Shown here: piece after piece, positions 27,335-42,812 of the stretch
Layout of the letters: the number at the start of each line of letters is the position of its first letter
Position numbering within the stretch: the first letter of the stretch is position 1
DNA from: Pararcticibacter amylolyticus
GTDB lineage: Bacteria; Bacteroidota; Bacteroidia; Sphingobacteriales; Sphingobacteriaceae
DNA: 42,909 nt
Assembly: GCF_003130405.1 (NCBI RefSeq)
Contig: NZ_QEAS01000010.1
Coordinates: 7,893-50,801, forward strand
Reading direction: 5' to 3'
Program-made: the position numbers and the translations under genes
Notes under the pieces: generated by a model
Databases searched by the model: none
Told to the model about the DNA's origin: nothing
What the model saw: only the letters and a program-made list of their open reading frames with translations

Positions 27335-30300
27335 TTAAAAATTTGCATTAATTGTAAATCCAAAGCTGCGGGTGGATGCACTCGACCCTTCGTCAATTCC
27401 CTGACGATACCATTGCGATCCTATAGGAGCTTCCGGATCGAGATCTTTAAGTGTTCTGTGTAAATAGAACAAATTACGGCCAATTAAAGAAATCCTCATA
27501 TTACTAACCTTCATCTTATTAGATATAGATGATGGTAAACGAAAACTCAGAGTTACTTCCCGTAATTTAATGTAATTGTTCTTATAAATCGCTCCTCTCT
27601 CGTTGTATGCATCGCTACCCCAGTAGAAGCTGTTAATATAATAACCCGCAGCATCCACAACAACCTTGTTTTCTTCTCCGTTTTCTGTCACTCCCGGAAT
27701 GATAACCCCATCGTGGTATACTGTTGTTCCATTAGGCGCTGAAGCATTATGAGTAGGAAGAAGTGTTTTGATATCTTTCATCACAGGCTGGCCATTTCCG
27801 TCAACCCTGGGCACGCCATTTTCGTCCCTTTCTTGCTCCTGCCTGACATAATAAGGCAAACCTCCATGAGCTTCATCCCTGTATTGCATAGAATTCTCAT
27901 ACAGTCCAGCACTAAGCGCATATTTTAATGGCGTAGAGATCATTTTTCCCCCGAACCTGTAATCAATCATAAAGTCGAGTGAAACATTCTTGAAAGACAA
28001 CGTATTTGAAAAACCGCCTACAGCTTTCGGCATAATATTACCTGCTTTTTTATACTGTGTCTTATCGATAGTATAATATCCTAAACTATTGATCACAGGA
28101 GTCCCGGAAGCGTCTGCCTTCAATGGATAAACATAAATATTTCCAATTTCTTGTCCCGGCTCGGCAAATATCCTTATCGCACTCTGATCAGCGTCGTAGA
28201 AAGATAAACGTTCAATTCCCGGTGCTAAAGATTCAACTTTAGATTTGTTAAATGCATAGTTAAAGCGTGTATCCCATCTGAACTTTCCGCTAACGGGAGT
28301 TGCGTTAAGTGCAATCTCGATCCCACTGCTCCTTATTTCACCGGCATTAACAATCTGACTTGTTGCTCCTATTGTCGGAGCTGTGTTCAAGTCCATGATC
28401 ACTTTTTTAACGCGACTGTTATATACGCTTAAATCCACCCCAATCCGGTCATTCATAAACTTACTCTCCAGACCGAACTCCATTTCGTATTTCTTTTCTG
28501 GTTCCAACTGATTATTACCCCATTTAGATGGTAGTGTAAGAGAAGGAACAGAACCATTGACAGATTGAAGCGAGATCTGATTGTAAAGAATGTTCGCACG
28601 GTACATTGGTGGAGCGTTGCCTACGATTCCGTAAGATGCTCTTAGTTTTCCGTAACTCATAAAGTCTGGCAATTTAAAAGCATCACTAAAAACAAAGCCT
28701 GCATTTACGGAAGGATAAAAGTAGTGGTTGTTCGCAGGGGGCAGCGAAGATGCATACTCCTGCCTTGCAGTCCCTTCAAGAAATAAATAATCTTTAAAAC
28801 TAAGATTTAGTATACCAAGATAAGCATACTTCAGTAATGATGCACGCGTGGCTGTGGTAGACAGAATTCCGTATGAATTGTTCAAAGTGAACCAGTTTGC
28901 CGTAACAAGTCCAGCCTGAGTGCCAGAGAATTGATCCCGGTAGTTTTCATCTCTGCCCTGGAACCCACCACTTACGGTAAAATCTAAATCAGAGAACAGC
29001 TTATTTGAATAGGTTAACAAGGCATCTCCATAGAATACTGAATAGCGCCCCTTCGATACACTGAAATTTCCGGTACTTGAACTAGTCCCGTTGAAAGCAA
29101 TAGGATATTCGTTGAACTCTTCTTTTTGAATCGCCCGGGTAGTAAAATCATTCCCGACTCTTCCTCTGAATTTCAGGTTCTTCACCAACTCCCAATTTAA
29201 AGTTACGGTGGATAAGAAACGATCCTCATCCTCATCTTCATTATTTTTTAGCTGATTCCAAAAGAAATTTAAGATTTCTGGCTTCGTATTATAAAGAAAA
29301 GCTTCCTGCGGGTTTCTTTGAGAATCTGACGGGCCAACCCATTTATATCCTTCCGAAGTCTGATACTTCTGAAGAAATAGATTCATATCATCGGAACGAT
29401 TAAAGAACCCATCATAAGAAGCCGTAAGCCTGTTAATTTGATATGGCCTGTTATGAACCTGAGTGTTAACATAACTTACAATCACATCCGTGCTGATCTT
29501 ATCACTTAATTTAAGGCTACTGTTCAGATTAAACGTATTTTTAGCATACTTGCCACCTCTCTGAATGCCTTTGTAATCGTTACGGGACGCTGAGAATCTA
29601 TAATTTACCTTATCTGTTTGGTTTGAAACAGCGACATTTAAATTGGAGTTAAACCCTGTCCTGAAAATGTCTTTATAGTTATCTGGCTGGGGAGACAGGG
29701 GCCTTTCCACGCCGTCCCACCACGTAATCATTCTGCCATCTAGTTTAGGCCCAAAATTTGCCCATGCGCTGAACCAGGGCCGGTAACCGACAACTGTTCC
29801 ATTTGGACCGGGAACTGGTAACATCCCTTCCTCGTTTGTGTTATTCGCAACCCGGGTCTCCATATCATAACCAGGACCATACTCATTTTGAAATCTGGGG
29901 GTAAAAGCTACTTTTTCGACGTTTCCAACATAATTAAAATCAACACCGAAACCTCTCTCCTTTGAACCTTTTTTGGTAGTAATCACAATTACCCCGCTGG
30001 CAGCATCGGATCCATAAAGGGCCGTAGCACTAGCACCTTTAAGTACTGTCAGACTTTCAATATCGTTTGGATTAATATCCAGGATACCGTTACCCCGAAT
30101 TCTTTGATCATCCCAGTAACCACCATTATTTAGGCCGATCTCTCCACCTTTTGGATTAACATTCTTTTCCTCAGCATTTCTGATCATCACCCCATCAACC
30201 ACATACAAAGGCTGCGTATTAAAATTCAAAGAATTAATCCCTCTTATCTGCACATTCACAGCACTGCTTGCTCCGCCAGGTGCAGTTGTAATTTTTACCC

Positions 30301-31036
30301 CTGCCGCTTTTCCATATAAAGCAGATGCAAAATTGGTATTGCCGGCCTGGGTGATCTCCTTTGAAGACACTGTACTTACCGCATATCCCAGGGATTTCTG
30401 CTGCCTTTGGATACCCAAAGATGTAACAACCACCTCACTCAACGCCGTCGCGTCTTCCTTCAGCACCACATTAAGCGTCGTTCTGCTTCCAACAGTGACT
30501 TCCTGCTTTTGAAATCCAACAAACGAGAACACCAGTATATCGGTTGGCTGTGCTGAAATCGTAAATGTGCCCTGAGGCCCGGTCGAGGTCCCCTTTGTTG
30601 TTCCTTTAATAATCACACTTACTCCAGGAAGAGGCTGCCCCTGTGCATCTTTAACCGTCCCCTTGACCGAAACCTGCTTTGCAGCTCCACCCTCCACGAT
30701 CAATTTGTCTTTCAGCACCGCAAACTGCAATCCTGTCTGTTCTGTAATCTCGTTCAGAAGAGAATTAACAGGAGCATTCTTCACATTTAACGATACACGG
30801 TTGCTGTTCTTCAAAACAGAGCGATCATAATGTACCTTCATTCCCGTCTTAGTCCCTATAGAAGCGAGTACATTCTCTACGGGAGAATTCTCCACATCCA
30901 CACTGACCTTGGTTGAATCAGCCCATTTTCCAGCACTGGCTGACGCCGGCACTGCATACGCAAACGACCACAGTGAAAGGAGGGCCATCACTCTGCCGGC
31001 GCATTGTCTTGTGAGTAAATTAATTTTCATACACAT
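27335..31036 (-). CDS. SusC/RagA TonB-dependent transporter with STN signalling domain
   Basis: Outer-membrane importer of 1,233 residues. After the signal peptide (to about 36) comes an STN domain (about 45-115), which in this class contacts a FecR-type anti-sigma factor. A carboxypeptidase-regulatory-like domain follows (about 122-193, VKGTVKDAQGQPLPGV), then the SusC hallmark ALSEVVVTSLG (198-208), the plug (VQIRGINSL at 262-270, YVVDGV at 278-283) and a long beta-barrel ending in ...ANF with the terminal aromatic residue. ATG codons at 31036 and 31030 are both possible starts. It is 5 bp from the FecR stop and 18 bp from susD. The STN domain plus adjacent FecR and sigma genes make a trans-envelope sensing circuit likely. 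Confidence 0.97.
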   Translation of the reverse strand: MCMKINLLTRQCAGRVMALLSLWSFAYAVPASASAGKWADSTKVSVDVENSPVENVLASIGTKTGMKVHYDRSVLKNSNRVSLNVKNAPVNSLLNEITEQTGLQFAVLKDKLIVEGGAAKQVSVKGTVKDAQGQPLPGVSVIIKGTTKGTSTGPQGTFTISAQPTDILVFSFVGFQKQEVTVGSRTTLNVVLKEDATALSEVVVTSLGIQRQQKSLGYAVSTVSSKEITQAGNTNFASALYGKAAGVKITTAPGGASSAVNVQIRGINSLNFNTQPLYVVDGVMIRNAEEKNVNPKGGEIGLNNGGYWDDQRIRGNGILDINPNDIESLTVLKGASATALYGSDAASGVIVITTKKGSKERGFGVDFNYVGNVEKVAFTPRFQNEYGPGYDMETRVANNTNEEGMLPVPGPNGTVVGYRPWFSAWANFGPKLDGRMITWWDGVERPLSPQPDNYKDIFRTGFNSNLNVAVSNQTDKVNYRFSASRNDYKGIQRGGKYAKNTFNLNSSLKLSDKISTDVIVSYVNTQVHNRPYQINRLTASYDGFFNRSDDMNLFLQKYQTSEGYKWVGPSDSQRNPQEAFLYNTKPEILNFFWNQLKNNEDEDEDRFLSTVTLNWELVKNLKFRGRVGNDFTTRAIQKEEFNEYPIAFNGTSSSTGNFSVSKGRYSVFYGDALLTYSNKLFSDLDFTVSGGFQGRDENYRDQFSGTQAGLVTANWFTLNNSYGILSTTATRASLLKYAYLGILNLSFKDYLFLEGTARQEYASSLPPANNHYFYPSVNAGFVFSDAFKLPDFMSYGKLRASYGIVGNAPPMYRANILYNQISLQSVNGSVPSLTLPSKWGNNQLEPEKKYEMEFGLESKFMNDRIGVDLSVYNSRVKKVIMDLNTAPTIGATSQIVNAGEIRSSGIEIALNATPVSGKFRWDTRFNYAFNKSKVESLAPGIERLSFYDADQSAIRIFAEPGQEIGNIYVYPLKADASGTPVINSLGYYTIDKTQYKKAGNIMPKAVGGFSNTLSFKNVSLDFMIDYRFGGKMISTPLKYALSAGLYENSMQYRDEAHGGLPYYVRQEQERDENGVPRVDGNGQPVMKDIKTLLPTHNASAPNGTTVYHDGVIIPGVTENGEENKVVVDAAGYYINSFYWGSDAYNERGAIYKNNYIKLREVTLSFRLPSSISNKMKVSNMRISLIGRNLFYLHRTLKDLDPEAPIGSQWYRQGIDEGSSASTRSFGFTINANF

Positions 31037-31041
31037 GATTT

Positions 31042-32037
31042 TTAGTTGATTTGAATGGAATCTTTTGATATCACTTTATATGTTACACCCTCTGTCAGGC
31101 AAATTGTCTCCAGTACTTCTGTTAAGCCTTCCTCCCGGAACATGCCGGTATACTTCCAGTCCTTGATACTGCTTTTATTCTCAATGGTCACATTAAAGCG
31201 GTTTTCTATACTGGTAATCACCTCCTCGGCAGATGCATTATCAAAGCTCAATACGCCTTTCCTCCAGCCGTTTACTACAAGGGGATCTGAAAATGTTTTA
31301 TTCTGAACTTGTGCTGAACCTTTTCTCAGCACAACCTGTTCATGAGGCTCAAGAAAACTTGATTTCGATGCAGCTCCGGGAGAATGCAGGTTGTCTACCC
31401 TCACCTTTCCTTCCACTAGGGCCACTGTGACTTTGTGTTCCTTCTGATAGTTCCTGACATCGAATGAGGTGCCCAGTGCAGTTGTGGCACACCCGGCTGT
31501 ATATACAGTAAAAGGTTTCCTCCGGTCGCTTGCAACTGAAAAATAAGCTTCTCCCTCGTCCAGATACACCGGGCGCACTGGTCCGTCAAACCGGGAAGGA
31601 TACCTGATGACACTGGAAGCATTAAGTGCAACCGGGCTGCCGTCTGGCAGGGTAAATGAATGAGTAAGCCCCTTTGGTGTCGTTATTATAACCCATCCGC
31701 CCTTTTCTGTTTTTGTAACAGCAAGTTTTACACCAGGCCCGATCCGGTTTTCAACCAGACTGCTGTAAAGAAAAAACGCTCCTGCACCGGCAAAAACCAG
31801 GAACACGGCCGCCACGCTTAAAAGTCGCCTCAGGTTGATCCGCCTGCTCTTTACGTGACGGTCAATCCCCGACTTTATTTGTTTAAGCCGCTCTTCAGTA
31901 TCGTCATCCTCAATAACATCCTTATTCAAAAATACCGGGTCTTTATCCAGCCATTCATCGATCAATACACGCTCCTCGTCATTGACCCGACCCTCCTGGT
32001 ACTTCTTCAGCAACTCTTTGATCTGATTAATATCCAA
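31042..32037 (-). CDS. FecR-family anti-sigma factor, TTG start
   Basis: Inner-membrane anti-sigma factor that relays the SusC signal to the ECF sigma factor. The cytoplasmic N-terminal part (1-70) is helical and charged, one membrane helix spans about 71-92, the periplasmic FecR domain covers about 119-213 (VYLDEGEAYFSV, FTVYTAG...LGTSFDVRNY) and a DUF4974 domain about 258-331 contacts the STN side in this family. 331 residues is normal. The N-terminal family pattern (QIKELLKKYQEGRVNDEERVLIDEW, split here over residues 5-29) begins right at a TTG codon; an in-frame stop lies upstream and no ATG or GTG intervenes, so TTG appears to be the true start. It is 125 bp after the sigma gene. Confidence 0.93.
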   Translation of the reverse strand: MDINQIKELLKKYQEGRVNDEERVLIDEWLDKDPVFLNKDVIEDDDTEERLKQIKSGIDRHVKSRRINLRRLLSVAAVFLVFAGAGAFFLYSSLVENRIGPGVKLAVTKTEKGGWVIITTPKGLTHSFTLPDGSPVALNASSVIRYPSRFDGPVRPVYLDEGEAYFSVASDRRKPFTVYTAGCATTALGTSFDVRNYQKEHKVTVALVEGKVRVDNLHSPGAASKSSFLEPHEQVVLRKGSAQVQNKTFSDPLVVNGWRKGVLSFDNASAEEVITSIENRFNVTIENKSSIKDWKYTGMFREEGLTEVLETICLTEGVTYKVISKDSIQIN

Positions 32038-32162
32038 TTTATTAAGATTTAAAAGTGAAGTCGCAGATAAGCGAACCCGGTACTATTTCAACGGTAAATT
32101 TTTTTTCATAAAAAGGCAGTAATGGAAATGGTAGAATTCAGCAGCGCACAGTAAAAAGGATG

Positions 32163-32753
32163 CTACTTAAGTTTTTCAAAAAGAAACATCAATATAGTCA
32201 TGTTAGTCAGGTAAGTTTCTGCATGATGTTCCCTCAGAATACTGAGGGCCTTGGTAAGTTGGTTTTTTACTGTTTGAGGCGAAATCGATAACTTCTCAGC
32301 TATTGAATTTACCGAAAGATGCTCAAACCTGCTAAGAATAAATATTTCTTTCATCCTGCAGGGAAAACCGTCGATGGTATGCATAACCCCTTTTAACTGG
32401 TTCTTTTGATCAATATTATCAACCGGGGCGGTAAAATGGGTATTCACGTAATCGCCAAGTTCGGTCAGGTATTTCTGATACTTGTAATTTCTCCTGTACT
32501 GATCGGTTATTTTATATTTGATGGCCTGGAAAAGATAAGACTTTAAAGATGCTTCAATCCGAATTGTTTCTCTTTTTTCCCAGAGCGATATGAAAACATC
32601 CTGAAGAATATCGCTGCAAAGATCCTGATCATCCAGTCTTGCATACAGATAGGTATAAAGCATTTTGCTATAAGTGGTATAGATCCTGTCAAATGCAAAG
32701 GCTTCTCCCGCTTTCAGCGAAATCAGCAAATGTTCTTCATTAATCAATTTCAT
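32163..32753 (-). CDS. ECF RNA polymerase sigma factor
   Basis: Sigma-70 family group IV protein of 196 residues. Region 2 covers about 20-88 (FDRIYTTYSKML, then DLCSDILQDVFISLWEKR for -10 recognition) and region 4 covers about 122-175 with the helix-turn-helix SVNSIAEKLSISPQTVKNQL (147-166). This is the type paired with FecR and SusC-STN, held inactive until the transporter binds its glycan. It would drive the SusCD genes and perhaps the glycosidases. The gene lies 41 bp downstream of the ROK gene, so it may be co-transcribed with it. A TA-nnn-TTTG box (one base too long) lies at about 32776-32784. Confidence 0.95.
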   Translation of the reverse strand: MKLINEEHLLISLKAGEAFAFDRIYTTYSKMLYTYLYARLDDQDLCSDILQDVFISLWEKRETIRIEASLKSYLFQAIKYKITDQYRRNYKYQKYLTELGDYVNTHFTAPVDNIDQKNQLKGVMHTIDGFPCRMKEIFILSRFEHLSVNSIAEKLSISPQTVKNQLTKALSILREHHAETYLTNMTILMFLFEKLK

Positions 32754-34094: not shown

Positions 34095-34823
34095 TTACAC
34101 AGACGCTTTCATTAACAATTTTCTCATCTCTTCAACCAGATCACTGGATGTTTGATAAAATTCAGATGAAATTATTGACTTTATTTTAAATTCACCACCT
34201 TCACCCTTTAGTACTTTCGCTGTACTATGAAGCTCATTTGCCCTGCTTTCTTTAGCTACAGACACTACGTTTGCTACATTCACCCCCGCGCCAGCCATCA
34301 CAATGATCCGTCCATCCGCCTGCTCAACCAGTCGCCTTATTTTATCTCTTCCTTCATAAGCAGAAGTTTCACCTCCGGAAGTAAGCACCCTTTCACAACC
34401 AAGTGATATAATATCCTCCAGTGCCTCACGCTGATCCTTACTACAATCAAAAGCGCGATGGAACGTTACTTCCATTGGGCGGGCCAGGGTAATCAGTTCA
34501 GTGCATCTTTCCATGTCAACACAACTGTCAGTGTCAAGCACTCCCAAAACTACCCCTTTACAACCCAGTGCTTTACAAATCCCAATCTCCTCCTTCATTA
34601 CCTCAAATTCCTCATCCGTATAAACGAATCCGCCTCCGCGCGGACGAATAATAGGAAAAACGGGAATATTCAGCAGATCGATACATCTTTTAATAAGGCC
34701 GTAAGAAGGAGTTGTTCCTCCCTCCGCCATATTATCACACAATTCAATCCGGTCTGCTCCACCCTTCTGGGCAGCTAAAGCCGATTCGATCGAATTAGCA
34801 CAAATTTCAAGTTTATAGCTCAT
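34095..34823 (-). CDS. cutC: CutC family protein
   Basis: TIM-barrel protein of the CutC family, 242 residues, normal length. Family signatures are LEICANS (5-11), the RIELCDNMAEGGTTPSYG stretch (about 25-42), IRPRGGGFVY (about 59-68), VTFHRAFD near 118-125 and RVLTSGG near 145. CutC was named for copper tolerance, but its biochemical role is disputed and the original phenotype has been questioned. No signal peptide, so cytoplasmic. It lies 26 bp after the PAS gene and is the last member of the RsbQ-PAS-CutC unit. Confidence 0.93.
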   Translation of the reverse strand: MSYKLEICANSIESALAAQKGGADRIELCDNMAEGGTTPSYGLIKRCIDLLNIPVFPIIRPRGGGFVYTDEEFEVMKEEIGICKALGCKGVVLGVLDTDSCVDMERCTELITLARPMEVTFHRAFDCSKDQREALEDIISLGCERVLTSGGETSAYEGRDKIRRLVEQADGRIIVMAGAGVNVANVVSVAKESRANELHSTAKVLKGEGGEFKIKSIISSEFYQTSSDLVEEMRKLLMKASV

Positions 34824-34849
34824 AAATAAGAAACAACAGGTTATCTGGC

Positions 34850-35479
34850 TTAGGTTCTCGCCTTATTGACAATCTTCTTGATCACATTATCAAGCTGGCC
34901 GGTACTTTCCTTTAATAAGGCAATAATGCTCCTGATGTCCTGATCATTACGCCCATGTTCCAGAATCTCAACCAGCCCTAATATATTTGCTAACGGTGCG
35001 CGGACAAGATGCGACTGGTAGAACGCGACTTCATCCAGTGCGTCCTCTTTCTTCTGTCTCTCTTCTTCTGCTAACGTTTTCCTTTTCAGTAATTCCGCCT
35101 CATATTTTTTCCGGTCTTCTACCTTATAGATGGTAGCATGAACGATAGGATCCTGCATTCCCGGATGCAAACAAGCTCTGGCGCTAAATAAACAGGCAAA
35201 GCCTGTCTTCTCTGTAATAATCTGAAAACTTATTTCTTTTGCTTCCTGCTCCACACGGAGCAGGGGATAAACAAATAACTGGTAATAAAGACGCCCGCCC
35301 CGGTCAAGCAGTTCAGTAAAATGTATCCCCCTTATCTCATGCTCAGTCACATCAAGCCAGCCAAGCAAGGTCTTGTTGGCATGAAGGATCCGCCCTCCTT
35401 TAAGGGCATAGGATACCAATCCGCAGGGCGACTGATGGTATAACTGCTTAAAATCTATGATTTCGTCGCCCTCACTCAT
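34850..35479 (-). CDS. PAS protein with a phosphoacceptor helix but no ATPase domain
   Basis: 209-residue soluble protein. Residues about 8-120 fold like a PAS domain (YHQSPCGLVSYALKGG, then ILHANKTLLGWLDVTEHEIRG split over 31-51, and a later beta sheet). A coiled coil (about 121-152) leads to a histidine-kinase dimerisation-like helix with His157 in SHLVRAPLANILG (156-168) and a second helix to the end. The kinase ATPase domain is absent and the stop codon is followed by another gene, so it is not a simple frameshift of a larger kinase. It starts 5 bp after an RsbQ-like hydrolase gene. In Bacillus, RsbQ acts on the PAS domain of RsbP, so this PAS is the likely partner. The output is unknown: it may be phosphorylated in trans or act by binding. 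Confidence 0.8.
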   Translation of the reverse strand: MSEGDEIIDFKQLYHQSPCGLVSYALKGGRILHANKTLLGWLDVTEHEIRGIHFTELLDRGGRLYYQLFVYPLLRVEQEAKEISFQIITEKTGFACLFSARACLHPGMQDPIVHATIYKVEDRKKYEAELLKRKTLAEEERQKKEDALDEVAFYQSHLVRAPLANILGLVEILEHGRNDQDIRSIIALLKESTGQLDNVIKKIVNKART

Positions 35480-35484
35480 CCTGA

Positions 35485-36285
35485 TTAATTTATTCCCAGA
35501 TATGCACTGATAGCCTCAACGGTTTCCTCGGGTGCACTCAGATGAGGACAGTGTCCGCTGGCATTCATAACGTAGAGTGTATTTCCAGGAGTATTCTTCT
35601 CAATATAATGCCCAACCGCAACTGGTGCCAGAATATCCTCAACACATTGGAGTGTCAGGCTCGGCACAACCACATTCTTGAGGTCCTTCCGGTTATCAGA
35701 AAGGAAAGTAACACGTGCAAACTCTCTGGCGATTTCCGGGTCCGTCGCACAGAAATTAGAATTGAGCTCTTCAGAAAGCTCAGGTTTTTCAGGATTTCCC
35801 ATGATAAGCGGCGCCATTGTGCCCGACCACCCCAGGTAGTTACTGTCCATCATATCCAAAAGAGCTTCCAGATCTTCCTTACTTATCCCTCCGGTATAAT
35901 CATCTTCATTTATATAACAGGGAGATGGTGTCACAAATATGAGGCTTTCAAAAAGTTCGGGGCGCATAATAGAAGCGCGGAGTCCGATCATGCTGCTTAC
36001 GGAATGTCCCACGAACACGGTAGCCTTTATATTCAGGGCGTCCAGGATCTCTATAATGTCTTTCGCATAGCCATCCAGCGAATTATATCTGACAGGATTG
36101 TAAGCATCCAGGTCAGATTGACCGGCGCCAACGTAATCAAACAGAACAAGACGGAAGCGGGTTTTGAATGCATTGATAAGGTACCGCCAAACATTCTGGT
36201 CACATCCAAAGCCATGAGCCAGAACCATTGTCCGGGTCCCTTCTCCGATCACCCTTACGTTATTTCTTTTAATTACATCGACCAT
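35485..36285 (-). CDS. RsbQ-like alpha/beta hydrolase
   Basis: 266 residues from the ATG at 36285; a TTG at 36312 would add nine residues but overlaps a promoter box and is not needed for homology. It is strikingly like Bacillus RsbQ: GFGCDQNVW, LFDYVGAGQSDL, YNSLDGYAKDI, VGHSVSSMIGLRASI, TPSPCYIN, FCATDPEIAREFA and SGHCPHLS. The catalytic triad is Ser95, Asp217 and His245. RsbQ and its plant relatives D14/KAI2 are small-ligand hydrolase-receptors. In Bacillus, RsbQ is required for the PAS phosphatase RsbP to sense energy stress. Here the next gene, 5 bp on, is a PAS protein, supporting the same partnership. No signal peptide, so cytoplasmic. Confidence 0.9.
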   Translation of the reverse strand: MVDVIKRNNVRVIGEGTRTMVLAHGFGCDQNVWRYLINAFKTRFRLVLFDYVGAGQSDLDAYNPVRYNSLDGYAKDIIEILDALNIKATVFVGHSVSSMIGLRASIMRPELFESLIFVTPSPCYINEDDYTGGISKEDLEALLDMMDSNYLGWSGTMAPLIMGNPEKPELSEELNSNFCATDPEIAREFARVTFLSDNRKDLKNVVVPSLTLQCVEDILAPVAVGHYIEKNTPGNTLYVMNASGHCPHLSAPEETVEAISAYLGIN

Positions 36286-36309
36286 AAAACCCGTCAGCTC
36301 AAATTGTAT

Positions 36310-36317
36310 CAAACGTA
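36310..36317 (-). promoter_or_regulatory. Likely -7 promoter element for the RsbQ-PAS-CutC unit
   Basis: TACGTTTG on the minus strand fits TAnnTTTG exactly and ends 24 bp before the ATG at 36285. No clear TTG lies 19-21 bp upstream. It sits in the 79-bp gap after the glycosylasparaginase gene and indicates that the three-gene unit has its own promoter. Confidence 0.5.
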
Positions 36318-36364
36318 TACGATAAAAGCTAACATAAGTTTTTTTTGTTATTTACGCAATTATT

Positions 36365-37387
36365 CTAGTAGTAGCTCCTACCCTTTATAATTAAATCCTG
36401 CTTATTAACATCACAAACCGCAAACGAAAATCCTTTCTGTATAGCGTAAGCTCCGTATTCGCCTTTTTTATTCAAAGCAAGAAAGCCTACCTGGATTTCT
36501 TTTGCTGTTTCAGGCTTTTTCCTGATAATCCTCATTACCGCCTCCTTACATGCTTCCTCTGGCCTATAGCCCTGCCGCATGAGTTCAACCACCAGAAAGC
36601 TGCCCACATTCCGGATCACTTCTTCCCCAACTCCCGTGGATGTCGCAGCGCCTACTTCGTTATCTACATAAAGGCCAGCACCTATAATTGGAGAATCTCC
36701 AACTCTCCCGCGCAGCTTAAACGCCATACCACTGGTTGTACAGGCTCCGGAGAGATTTCCTTTCGAGTCAAGTGCCAGCATACCGATCGTATCATGATTA
36801 TATTGATTACCAGGCAGTTTCCTCGGAGCGAATGATTTATTTTCGATATTGATAACAGGCTTGTACTGAGACGTTTTCAACCATTCTTTCCAGGCCTTTT
36901 CCGATTGGGGAGTGAGAAGATCTTCCTTCTTAAATCCCTGTTCAAGGGCAAATTGCAATGCACCTTCTCCTACCAGCATCACATGCGGTGTCTTCTCCAT
37001 CACCCTTCTGGCTACTGATATGGGATGAACGATGTGTTCAAGCGCAGCAACACTTCCGCAATTCCCCTTCTCATCCATGATGCAGGCATCCAGTGTAACT
37101 TTCCCATCCCGGTCCGGAAAGCCTCCGAGGCCTACTGTTTGATTCGCTGGATCTGCCTCCGGTACCCATACGCCCTGTTCAACTGCATCAAGAGACCGGC
37201 CTCCTTCTTTCAGCACTTTCCATGCCTCTGCATTAGCAGCAACGCCAAAGTCCCATGTTGAGATCACTATCGGACCACCTGATCCCATATTTTTAATACT
37301 CCTGGCCCCAGCCAGAAGATCTGCACCCGACAAAAGTGGAATCCCAAGCGCCGACAGCCCTATAAACTTCCTGCGGTTATATTTCAT
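36365..37387 (-). CDS. N4-(beta-N-acetylglucosaminyl)-L-asparaginase (aspartylglucosaminidase), exported
   Basis: Ntn-hydrolase that cuts the bond between GlcNAc and asparagine in glycoasparagines, the last step of N-glycoprotein breakdown. The 340 residues match the Elizabethkingia enzyme in length. The precursor self-cleaves before the nucleophile Thr200 in NHDTIGML; downstream GRVGDSPIIGAG (227-238) and the TSTG (249-252) segments bind substrate. The N terminus has a twin-arginine motif (R5-R6 in NRRKFIG) and hydrophobic run, so Tat export to the periplasm is likely. The start overlaps the stop of the preceding esterase-like gene by one base (TAATG), so it is translationally coupled to it. 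Plain asparaginase or isoaspartyl peptidase is less likely, given the residues around Thr200. Confidence 0.92.
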   Translation of the reverse strand: MKYNRRKFIGLSALGIPLLSGADLLAGARSIKNMGSGGPIVISTWDFGVAANAEAWKVLKEGGRSLDAVEQGVWVPEADPANQTVGLGGFPDRDGKVTLDACIMDEKGNCGSVAALEHIVHPISVARRVMEKTPHVMLVGEGALQFALEQGFKKEDLLTPQSEKAWKEWLKTSQYKPVINIENKSFAPRKLPGNQYNHDTIGMLALDSKGNLSGACTTSGMAFKLRGRVGDSPIIGAGLYVDNEVGAATSTGVGEEVIRNVGSFLVVELMRQGYRPEEACKEAVMRIIRKKPETAKEIQVGFLALNKKGEYGAYAIQKGFSFAVCDVNKQDLIIKGRSYY

Positions 37388-41177: not shown

Positions 41178-42812
41178 TTACATCTCTGTCACCACGGGAC
41201 CATAATGGGCCTTCCATAGATCGTATCTTTTAAGCTGTTCACGCAGTCTCGGTTCAAAGTCATTCCAGTCACGTGTTTGCTTCGGGCTCCATAAGACCTC
41301 ACTTAAAGCGCTCATCCTTGGAAACACCTGGTACTCTACCTTAGATGGATACTCCATATATTCAGACCAAACGTTTGCCTGTGCTCCCATTACATACTTT
41401 GATTCTGCTGCCGACAATTGCCGGGGGACAGGCTCGTAAGAATACACCTTTCTTACTGTCGTATATCCACCAATAGTCAGTGAATCATCCTGCTTCACCT
41501 GGGAATGATCAAAATAAACGTGGCTTCCCGGCGTCATAATAACGTAGTGACTTTGTTTAGCCGCTGCAATTCCGCCTTCCTCGCCTCTCCAGCTCATTAC
41601 CATGGCATTCGGAGCCAACCCACCTTCAAGAATCTCATCCCATCCGATAATGGTTCTTCCCTTGTTGTTGATATATTTCTCCATCCTTTGGATAAAATAG
41701 CTCTGAAGCTCATGCTCATCCTTTAAGCCCTTTTCCTTCATGAGCTGCTGGCAAAACTCCGAACGTTTCCAGTTATCTTTCGGACATTCATCACCACCGA
41801 TGTGTATATATTTTGAAGGGAATAGATTAACAACTTCATCAATCACGTCCTGCAAAAAAGCAAATGTCTTTTCTGTCGGGACAAACACGTCCTCAAACAC
41901 CCCCCAGGTTTGCTGAACATGCTTCCTTGTGGTGTCACCCGCCCATACTGTCTTCGGAGGAAACTTCGTAGATTCATTTGGAAAACAACTTAGCTCCGGG
42001 TAAGCCGCGATAGCTGCTGATGCATGTCCCGGCATCTCGATCTCCGGCACAACTGTTATGTAACGCTTAGCTGCATAATTCACTATTTCCTTCACCTCTT
42101 CCTGCGTATAAAACCCTCCGTAACGTTTATTATCGTTGCCGGTCCCGGGGAAATGCCCGATGACCGTTCCATTGCGGTATCCCCCAACCTGTGTCAGCTT
42201 AGGATACTTCTTGATTTCAATCCTCCAGCCCTGATCATCAGTAAGATGCCAGTGGAAATAATTGAACTTATGGAGAGCCAGATAATCTATATACTTCTTC
42301 ACAAAGGAAACAGGAAAGAAATGACGCGCTACATCCAGGTGCATCCCCCTGTATGAAAAACGCGGGGCGTCATTAACCGTAACAAACGGAACACTCAGGG
42401 AAGTGCTTTTCGCAGACGGCAGAAGCTGAATTAAAGTTTGTACCCCGTAAAACACTCCCGCAGCATCATTTCCCCGAATTCTCACCCCCTTTTTATCTAC
42501 ACTCAATGAATAAGATCCACTGGTTTGATTTCCGTCTTTCTTGATACTCAAATGGACACCAACTGCCCCGCTCTTCTCCACCCGGCTTTTAAGCAGGAAC
42601 CCATAATACTGCACCAGGTAATCATTCAGAAAATCCGCTGAACTCTGCAATGCCGCTTCAGCGACCGTTACCGGCGTCTTCGCATTAATTGTTAAACTCT
42701 GTCCCCCATCTGCCATTACCATATTAACCGGCTTTGGAATGATACTTACCTGCGCAAATCCGCTAAAGAAAAACGTCTGCATAAGAATAACAAAAAGTGT
42801 ATTTTTTTTCAT
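41178..42812 (-). CDS. Beta-N-acetylhexosaminidase, glycoside hydrolase family 20, secreted
   Basis: Exo-hexosaminidase using substrate-assisted catalysis, 544 residues. A signal peptide spans about 1-20 (ending FSGFAQ). The GH20b-type N-terminal domain covers about 22-150. The TIM barrel has YRGMHLDVARHF (154-165), HWHLTDDQGWR (187-197), PEIEMPGH (256-263) and the catalytic pair Asp341-Glu342 in HIGGDECPK, then WDE near 393 and late barrel residues lined with Trp. It would remove terminal GlcNAc or GalNAc from N-glycan antennae or core. It is upstream of two hydrolases and the glycosylasparaginase, and is flanked on both sides by 7-bp period repeats. Confidence 0.95.
   Translation of the reverse strand: MKKNTLFVILMQTFFFSGFAQVSIIPKPVNMVMADGGQSLTINAKTPVTVAEAALQSSADFLNDYLVQYYGFLLKSRVEKSGAVGVHLSIKKDGNQTSGSYSLSVDKKGVRIRGNDAAGVFYGVQTLIQLLPSAKSTSLSVPFVTVNDAPRFSYRGMHLDVARHFFPVSFVKKYIDYLALHKFNYFHWHLTDDQGWRIEIKKYPKLTQVGGYRNGTVIGHFPGTGNDNKRYGGFYTQEEVKEIVNYAAKRYITVVPEIEMPGHASAAIAAYPELSCFPNESTKFPPKTVWAGDTTRKHVQQTWGVFEDVFVPTEKTFAFLQDVIDEVVNLFPSKYIHIGGDECPKDNWKRSEFCQQLMKEKGLKDEHELQSYFIQRMEKYINNKGRTIIGWDEILEGGLAPNAMVMSWRGEEGGIAAAKQSHYVIMTPGSHVYFDHSQVKQDDSLTIGGYTTVRKVYSYEPVPRQLSAAESKYVMGAQANVWSEYMEYPSKVEYQVFPRMSALSEVLWSPKQTRDWNDFEPRLREQLKRYDLWKAHYGPVVTEM

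Follow-up and report, generated by a model that had tools for sequence, protein, structure and literature searches.

An RsbQ-PAS gene pair in Pararcticibacter amylolyticus and related Bacteroidota with a DHp output that lacks an ATPase domain and may act by phosphotransfer

Nadezhdin, Brody and Price (2011; PMC3183031) described 45 RsbQ/RsbP-PAS gene pairs with three outputs, i.e., a PPM phosphatase, a histidine kinase and a diguanylate cyclase, and gave a contig end and a frameshift as the reasons for two pairs without an output. These pairs show that a sensing head with varied outputs is already known; an output without an ATPase domain is not among these three. For archaea, PMC5847659 reports "possible incomplete histidine kinases", in which PAS/GAF sensors are combined with a C-terminal HisKA-like domain with a conserved His and no HATPase, and likewise receivers joined to PAS/GAF and HisKA in the absence of HATPase. 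There, HisKA proteins without an ATPase are stated to be mostly misannotated as kinases, and phosphoacceptor, phosphotransfer or phosphatase roles are put forward for them only as suggestions. Finally, PhyT, Spo0B and ChpT are described as kinases that degenerated into phosphotransferases, and PhyT keeps a degenerate ATPase-like domain (PMC5898713).

Here, we present an analysis of an RsbQ-PAS locus in a 42,909-nucleotide stretch of the Pararcticibacter amylolyticus genome (contig NZ_QEAS01000010.1, positions 7,893 to 50,801; referred to as the window). An initial annotation, made from the sequence alone, had listed genes for an RsbQ-like hydrolase, a PAS protein and CutC, and their order and spacing match the coordinates in the window, with the whole locus lying on the minus strand. 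Based on the open reading frames, rsbQ, the PAS-DHp gene and cutC follow one another in that order, with gaps of 5 bp between rsbQ and the PAS-DHp gene and 26 bp between the PAS-DHp gene and cutC. The features, in window positions, are as follows.

36365 to 37387, minus strand: asparaginase-family gene (PF01112), which in relatives usually precedes CutC (Pfam, genome survey)
36310 to 36317, minus strand: TACGTTTG, possible promoter element 24 nt 5′ of the hydrolase ATG (count in window; weak)
35485 to 36285, minus strand: RsbQ orthologue by sequence, alpha/beta hydrolase of 266 aa with the triad Ser95/Asp217/His245 (structure-database match, alignment)
34850 to 35479, minus strand: PAS-DHp protein of 209 aa without an ATPase domain (Pfam, model, fold search)
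35120 to 35452, minus strand: predicted RsbP-type PAS domain, approximately residues 10-120 of the PAS-DHp protein (model secondary structure, diagnostic positions)
34856 to 35071, minus strand: DHp (HisKA-like) helical hairpin, approximately residues 137-208, the C-terminal output (Pfam, model)
35009 to 35011, minus strand: codon of His157, a conserved phosphoacceptor-type residue inside SHLVRAPLANILGL (alignments of relatives)
34095 to 34823, minus strand: CutC gene, a neighbour that, in most genomes carrying the two genes, pairs with the asparaginase gene (Pfam, genome survey)

The hydrolase most likely starts at the ATG at 36285, giving 266 aa; an alternative TTG start at 36312 is possible and overlaps the TACGTTTG box. 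We take this box to resemble the Bacteroidota −7 promoter element (consensus TAnnTTTG). The box reported in front of the hydrolase is indeed present, but chance could account for its abundance in the window: it occurs three times versus 0.86 expected, and because 9 of 100 shuffles also reach three, the box by itself is weak evidence. A promoter scan gave eight sigma-70-like sites versus 6.7 in shuffles.

The best match of the hydrolase among solved structures is B. subtilis RsbQ (PDB 1wom; E 3.7e-95, residues 1-263 of 266), and KAI2/D14-type proteins fill most rows below 1wom in the match list. The Ser, Asp and His motifs align with those of B. subtilis RsbQ, and in our alignment Asp217 and His245 are kept in 12 of 12 sequences and Ser95 in 11 of 12. 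Judged by sequence, the hydrolase is an RsbQ orthologue over its full length, as the annotated likeness and Ser-Asp-His triad had suggested.

The gene directly 3′ of rsbQ encodes the 209-aa protein, in which the PAS domain is the most N-terminal domain. The PAS_9 match of this protein is below the Pfam cut-off (15.1 versus 27 bits); scanned one by one, 9 of 10 aligned proteins, including that of the window, match PAS_9, and 9 of 10 match HisKA. The residues diagnostic of RsbP-type PAS domains are C10, L13, L48, Q53, F55, C56, Y59, E72 and P86, with P62 likewise conserved; we mapped these positions by spacing from the numbering printed in PMC3183031, without the RsbP sequence itself. By this mapping, the window PAS domain fits at Cys19 (C10), Leu58 (L48), Tyr65 (F55), Phe69 (Y59), Pro72 (P62) and Glu82 (E72), has a hydrophobic residue, Val22, at the L13 equivalent, and differs at the Q53 and C56 equivalents (Arg63 and Tyr66), while the P86 equivalent has no assignment. 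Among 20 ATPase-less RsbQ partners, the C10 position is Cys in 16, L48 is Leu in 18, F55 is Tyr in 20, P62 is Pro in 19 and E72 is Glu in 20; the Y59 position is aromatic in just 11, and the Q53, C56 and P86 positions show no clear carry-over in these 20 proteins. The gene order, the domain position and these residues fit an RsbQ-PAS module, with a PAS domain that, to go by these correspondences, is orthologous to the RsbP type.

The output of this module is different from those described. The HisKA match of the 209-aa protein is below the Pfam cut-off (21.2 versus 26.9 bits), and HATPase, PP2C/PPM and GGDEF are all without a Pfam match; thus, none of the three published RsbQ-PAS outputs is present. 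HATPase is also absent at E ≤ 0.1 from all 10 aligned proteins, that of the window included, when scanned singly with Pfam, while HisKA is matched at E ≤ 0.1 in 32 of 32 ATPase-less C-termini, several of which, like that of the window, score under the Pfam cut-off. An AlphaFold model of the protein (mean pLDDT 84.5, pTM 0.56, eight aligned rows) predicts a PAS fold followed by a 52-residue helix (residues 123-174) with His157 and by a second helix (residues 180-208). With this model, Foldseek returned LOV/PAS histidine kinases first; the match to 8a7h (E 4e-10, 207 columns) is informative on the individual parts but not on how they are arranged relative to one another, because the TM score is just 0.49 and the rmsd 11 Å. 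Of the parts of a sensor kinase, the protein therefore has the phosphoacceptor His in a DHp hairpin and lacks HATPase_c; its C-terminus lies 52 aa past His157, leaving no degenerate ATPase-like domain of the kind found in dimeric histidine phosphotransferases. It does have the sensor domain, the C-terminal HisKA and the conserved His that, together with the absence of HATPase, define the archaeal class. Pfam and the model thus agree with the annotated PAS protein with a phosphoacceptor-like helix and neither a kinase ATPase nor a PP2C domain.

A frameshifted or cut-off kinase was ruled out for the window and the inspected ATPase-less loci, none of which has an HATPase downstream. We also considered a split kinase with a separate ATPase-only partner: among 87 HATPase_c matches in the genome, one lies in a frame of less than 290 aa. 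This 142-aa frame, judged by eye from its neighbours, looks like the RsbT of an RsbRST-like module, and therefore there is no obvious split-kinase partner among the HATPase_c frames of less than 290 aa.

The gene pair is conserved. RsbQ matches at E ≤ 1e-30 are present in 97 of 399 genomes of the family. We collected 80 stretches, nearly all around RsbQ matches (not every match), and 54 named loci retrieved by searching with the PAS-DHp alignment, removed eight duplicate loci, and left out RsbQ matches shorter than approximately 180 residues and rows of less than 220 aa. The 93 remaining RsbQ rows are followed by a kinase-like gene (55; by motif or length >350 aa), an ATPase-less DHp gene (21), an uncertain gene (1; L102, broken by Ns) or no such partner (16). 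One of the latter 16 sits at a contig end. In the RsbQ tree, the window falls among 11 ATPase-less rows that form one clade (support 100/99); its members include loci that match records of Arcticibacter, Mucilaginibacter and Desertivirga as well as two Pontibacter loci from another family, Hymenobacteraceae. A second ATPase-less clade, apart from the first, has 10 rows, one of which is the uncertain row (support 96/88); its PAS-DHp proteins are mostly 339-360 aa and, by eye, seemingly have a second PAS domain. One further ATPase-less case, L143, lies in a paralogous RsbQ clade. On this tree, the ATPase-less label needs four changes, of which at least three are forced by well supported branches. 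Conserved RsbQ-PAS pairs in related genomes were a check set beforehand, and their presence in two supported clades and a paralogue bears out the idea that the RsbQ-PAS sensing head has been joined to a different output, namely an ATPase-less DHp.

The ATPase-less pair is not a truncation accident. Kinase-like partners are the commonest among the RsbQ rows (55/93), as might be expected if the PAS-DHp protein were a decaying remnant of an RsbQ and histidine-kinase pair that has lost its ATPase and does little. However, the ATPase-less pairs form supported clades with several genera and a second family, PAS-DHp relatives with 36-56% identity to the window protein share its invariant residues, and the C-termini of the RsbQ partners end at a near-constant point, 48-64 aa past the His. 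We therefore regard decay as extremely improbable.

We then compared the DHp domains across the phylum with a profile built from 32 ATPase-less C-termini, RsbQ-linked and not. The profile matches 169 of 198 phylum genomes at E ≤ 1e-5, with complete kinases counted in. Among 30 loci (the top matches in the genomes with the highest scores), 25 are ATPase-less by tail length and five are long-tailed, all 30 have the His, and the nearest ATPase-bearing DHp domains, at five of the 30 loci, are of the SHNLRAPLSN type. The 139 distinct DHp matches comprise 87 that are ATPase-less and short (tail 48-89 aa; one gene, L265/L324, is counted twice), one that is ambiguous and 51 that bear an HATPase as called by a profile built for this analysis. 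All 87 ATPase-less relatives, and all other DHp matches, retain the phosphoacceptor His, a count favoured to some extent because the His was invariant in the profile and part of the motif by which its seed was chosen; the His is likewise kept in 55 of 55 ATPase-less relatives outside the seed.

The H+1 acid serves autophosphorylation in HisKA kinases, and a Thr or Asn at H+4 serves their phosphatase activity. An acid at H+1 is present in 12 of 87 ATPase-less relatives (E 12, D 0) compared with 37 of 51 ATPase-bearing ones (E 24, D 13; the other 14 have N), and H+4 is T in 1/87 and N in 0/87 compared with T or N in 35/51; Arg at H+3 is present in 87/87. At 80% identity (82 ATPase-less and 41 ATPase-bearing representatives), the picture is unchanged. 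The sole ATPase-less relative with Thr at H+4, L201, is from a MAG and seems to be an ordinary kinase whose frame is broken. The kept His and Arg at H+3, together with the loss of most residues for autophosphorylation and dephosphorylation, point to phosphotransfer.

The same pattern bears on two other roles. A regulated phosphatase or a phosphate sink for a receiver would also keep the His, and a phosphatase possibility has been raised for the archaeal HisKA proteins without HATPase (PMC5847659). The near-complete lack of Thr or Asn at H+4 argues against a phosphatase and weighs less against a sink; we consider this role unlikely. A little less unlikely, in our view, is that the PAS-DHp protein forms mixed dimers via its DHp with at least one complete histidine kinase and, under RsbQ control, is phosphorylated in trans or tunes the kinase. 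The genome with its 87 HATPase_c matches offers many possible partners, and the ATPase-bearing DHp domains nearest in the phylum scan are of the SHNLRAPLSN type, but no single kinase gene is found repeatedly next to RsbQ-linked members, and a pure scaffold would need no His.

We also surveyed the operons at 51 further loci chosen for ATPase-less DHp proteins (56 proteins). Eight of the 56 carry an N-terminal receiver (REC-(PAS)-DHp), and all eight have a small receiver gene at most two genes away; a nearby HATPase gene is on the same strand in seven of these stretches and on the opposite strand in the eighth (L322). One such case, L329, is in the genome of the window, where Pfam identifies a PAS-HisKA-HATPase kinase together with a receiver and a receiver-HisKA protein; this arrangement looks like a phosphorelay. 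Among ATPase-less DHp proteins without their own receiver, a small receiver lies within two genes in 3 of 48 (47 plain proteins and the second DHp protein of L110, which is not RsbQ-linked; L347 is the L143 gene), i.e., without enrichment over a background of 94 in 832 genes in RsbQ loci. No small receiver turned up within two genes of the RsbQ-linked pairs (0 of 18 ATPase-less members). Because receivers are not enriched, what speaks for phosphotransfer in the case of the window is domain kinship and residue pattern rather than linkage.

Altogether, we lean toward the explanation that in this pair an RsbQ-PAS sensing module drives a kinase-less DHp output, which acts by phosphotransfer, with most of our doubt concerning the phosphotransfer step and the missing receiver. 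In B. subtilis, the F55A substitution in RsbP-PAS abolishes RsbQ contact (PMC3183031). By analogy, we propose that in this two-gene signalling cassette RsbQ would bind or hydrolyse some small molecule and touch the RsbP-type PAS domain at its F-alpha region, and that the resulting change would travel along a coiled coil to the DHp bundle of a dimer. Because there is no ATPase, the DHp is not expected to autophosphorylate; instead, it may be a gated histidine phosphotransfer node, in which His157 would be phosphorylated in trans, taking a phosphoryl group from a receiver or kinase whose gene lies elsewhere, and the DHp would hand it on to a receiver or, alternatively, take it off a receiver. 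More tentatively, a large Bacteroidota family of kinase-less DHp outputs might consist of sensor-gated phosphotransfer or phospho-switch nodes to which RsbQ-PAS was joined at least two times, such that a D14/KAI2-type receptor gates a relay without a kinase of its own; this broader proposal we hold to be somewhat less probable than not.

CutC (PF03932, E 1.5e-75) is apparently part of a different gene cluster, and the suggested role for CutC downstream of the cassette found no support. Among 101 sampled genomes, 69, including that of the window, have both an asparaginase gene and CutC; in 43 of these, CutC comes no more than 250 bp 3′ of the asparaginase gene and on its strand, whereas the two are 0.7-1.6 kb apart in five and unlinked in 21. 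The five interrupted junctions are those of the window (RsbQ and PAS-DHp), three genomes of one genus (a gene of approximately 290 aa in two; G013 by distance alone) and G097, in which an ATPase-less PAS-DHp gene without RsbQ lies at the junction. Curiously, an ATPase-less PAS-DHp gene sits in two separate interruptions, and this is the sole result favouring a link to CutC. RsbQ, PAS-DHp and CutC as a functional operon that controls CutC, in copper or other metabolism, would agree with this G097 junction and with the 26 bp between the PAS-DHp gene and cutC on one strand. However, the asparaginase gene directly precedes CutC in the 43 genomes; in two congeners (L220, L221), asparaginase-CutC-ROK is uninterrupted; and in one of these two (G066), the RsbQ-PAS pair lies approximately 0.67 Mb from asparaginase-CutC-ROK on the same contig. 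Moreover, among 30 CutC loci with 1.5-kb flanks, RsbQ is found at that of the window alone, and CutC is beside RsbQ at none of the other RsbQ loci examined. We consider such an operon very unlikely; the simplest account is that the RsbQ-PAS-DHp cassette entered an older asparaginase-CutC cluster.

Searches of open-licence papers brought up no previous description of RsbQ paired with a partner that lacks an ATPase, nor of proteins of this kind in Bacteroidetes. If our interpretation is true, the window protein represents a fourth output class for the RsbQ-PAS module, and because it is small (209 aa), it provides a handle on what RsbQ tells its PAS partner; in addition, the residue pattern of a kept His with kinase and phosphatase residues mostly lost would predict the role of ATPase-less HisKA proteins. 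The locus resembles the RsbQ-RsbP-PAS module in that rsbQ and the PAS gene are neighbours arranged in the same order, the PAS domain is the most N-terminal one, most of the diagnostic PAS residues are present and a helix leads from PAS to output; its PAS domain ends in VEDRKKYE without a DIT motif, which is likewise missing in the RsbP-PAS set of PMC3183031. Unlike the pairs described there, with a PPM phosphatase, a full kinase or a diguanylate cyclase, its output is a DHp without an ATPase. By description, not by sequence, it shares with the archaeal class of PMC5847659 the make-up of a sensor and a conserved-His HisKA; unlike that class, our set is from Bacteroidota, has the motif QSHxVRxPLANIxGL and is in part coupled to RsbQ. 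By analogy with Spo0B, ChpT and PhyT, a kinase-derived DHp may serve phosphotransfer without kinase activity, which is proposed here and was shown there. Spo0B and ChpT keep a degenerate ATPase-like domain, and, unlike in these proteins and PhyT, nothing follows the DHp in the window protein. Finally, RsbQ belongs to the same hydrolase family as the plant receptors D14 and KAI2, its close sequence relatives; these receptors act through F-box proteins, whereas RsbQ acts on PAS proteins.

In the RsbQ tree, 12 orthologues (those of loci L101, L103, L106, L107, L129, L131, and L133 to L138) form a supported clade, and gene order shows that the downstream PAS partner is absent from their loci. In 9 of these 12 loci, RsbQ is adjoined by a long gene on the opposite strand encoding a protein of about 690 to 850 amino acids.

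In genome G097, an ATPase-less PAS-DHp gene that is not accompanied by RsbQ (L226:821-1489, contig C58) lies between the asparaginase gene and CutC, and it thereby occupies the same junction as the cassette of the window. This junction is interrupted in about three independent cases, two of which contain an ATPase-less PAS-DHp gene.

We also found that the RsbQ gene of the window is overlapped by an antisense frame:

35542-36390, plus strand: open frame of 282 amino acids, antisense to the RsbQ gene

This frame is probably not a gene; it misled simple longest-frame gene calling, and the window locus is consequently absent from the resulting table of RsbQ loci.

Diverged RsbQ paralogues (38-45% identity) were observed in L139 to L142, L144, L145, and L148, and directly downstream of them are kinases of 820 to 834 amino acids, which, as judged by eye, also contain receiver domains. 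This pairing is an additional RsbQ-like arrangement. In a Sphingobacteriales MAG, an RsbQ in which the catalytic Ser is replaced by Cys (GHCVSS; L157:4161-4949) adjoins an ATPase-less DHp protein of 360 amino acids.

An operon on contig C2 of the organism's own genome (L329:1066-4283) combines the gene for a PAS histidine kinase with those for one receiver and an ATPase-less receiver-DHp protein; receivers adjoin receiver-DHp proteins at seven loci besides this one.

Elsewhere in the window are the following genes, those of the first row being named by eye:

27335-32753, minus strand: consecutive genes for a large outer-membrane receptor-like protein, a FecR-like protein, and a small sigma-factor-like protein
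41178-42812: GH20 gene

The first row adjoins the ROK-CutC cluster, with the GH20 gene fairly near, and its region looks like a glycan-use locus. Finally, contig C137 of the same genome carries five consecutive genes on one strand (L349:2693-6581) with no linkage to RsbQ; by eye, two encode further ATPase-type proteins, and the other three correspond to RsbR, RsbS, and RsbT of a stressosome-like module.
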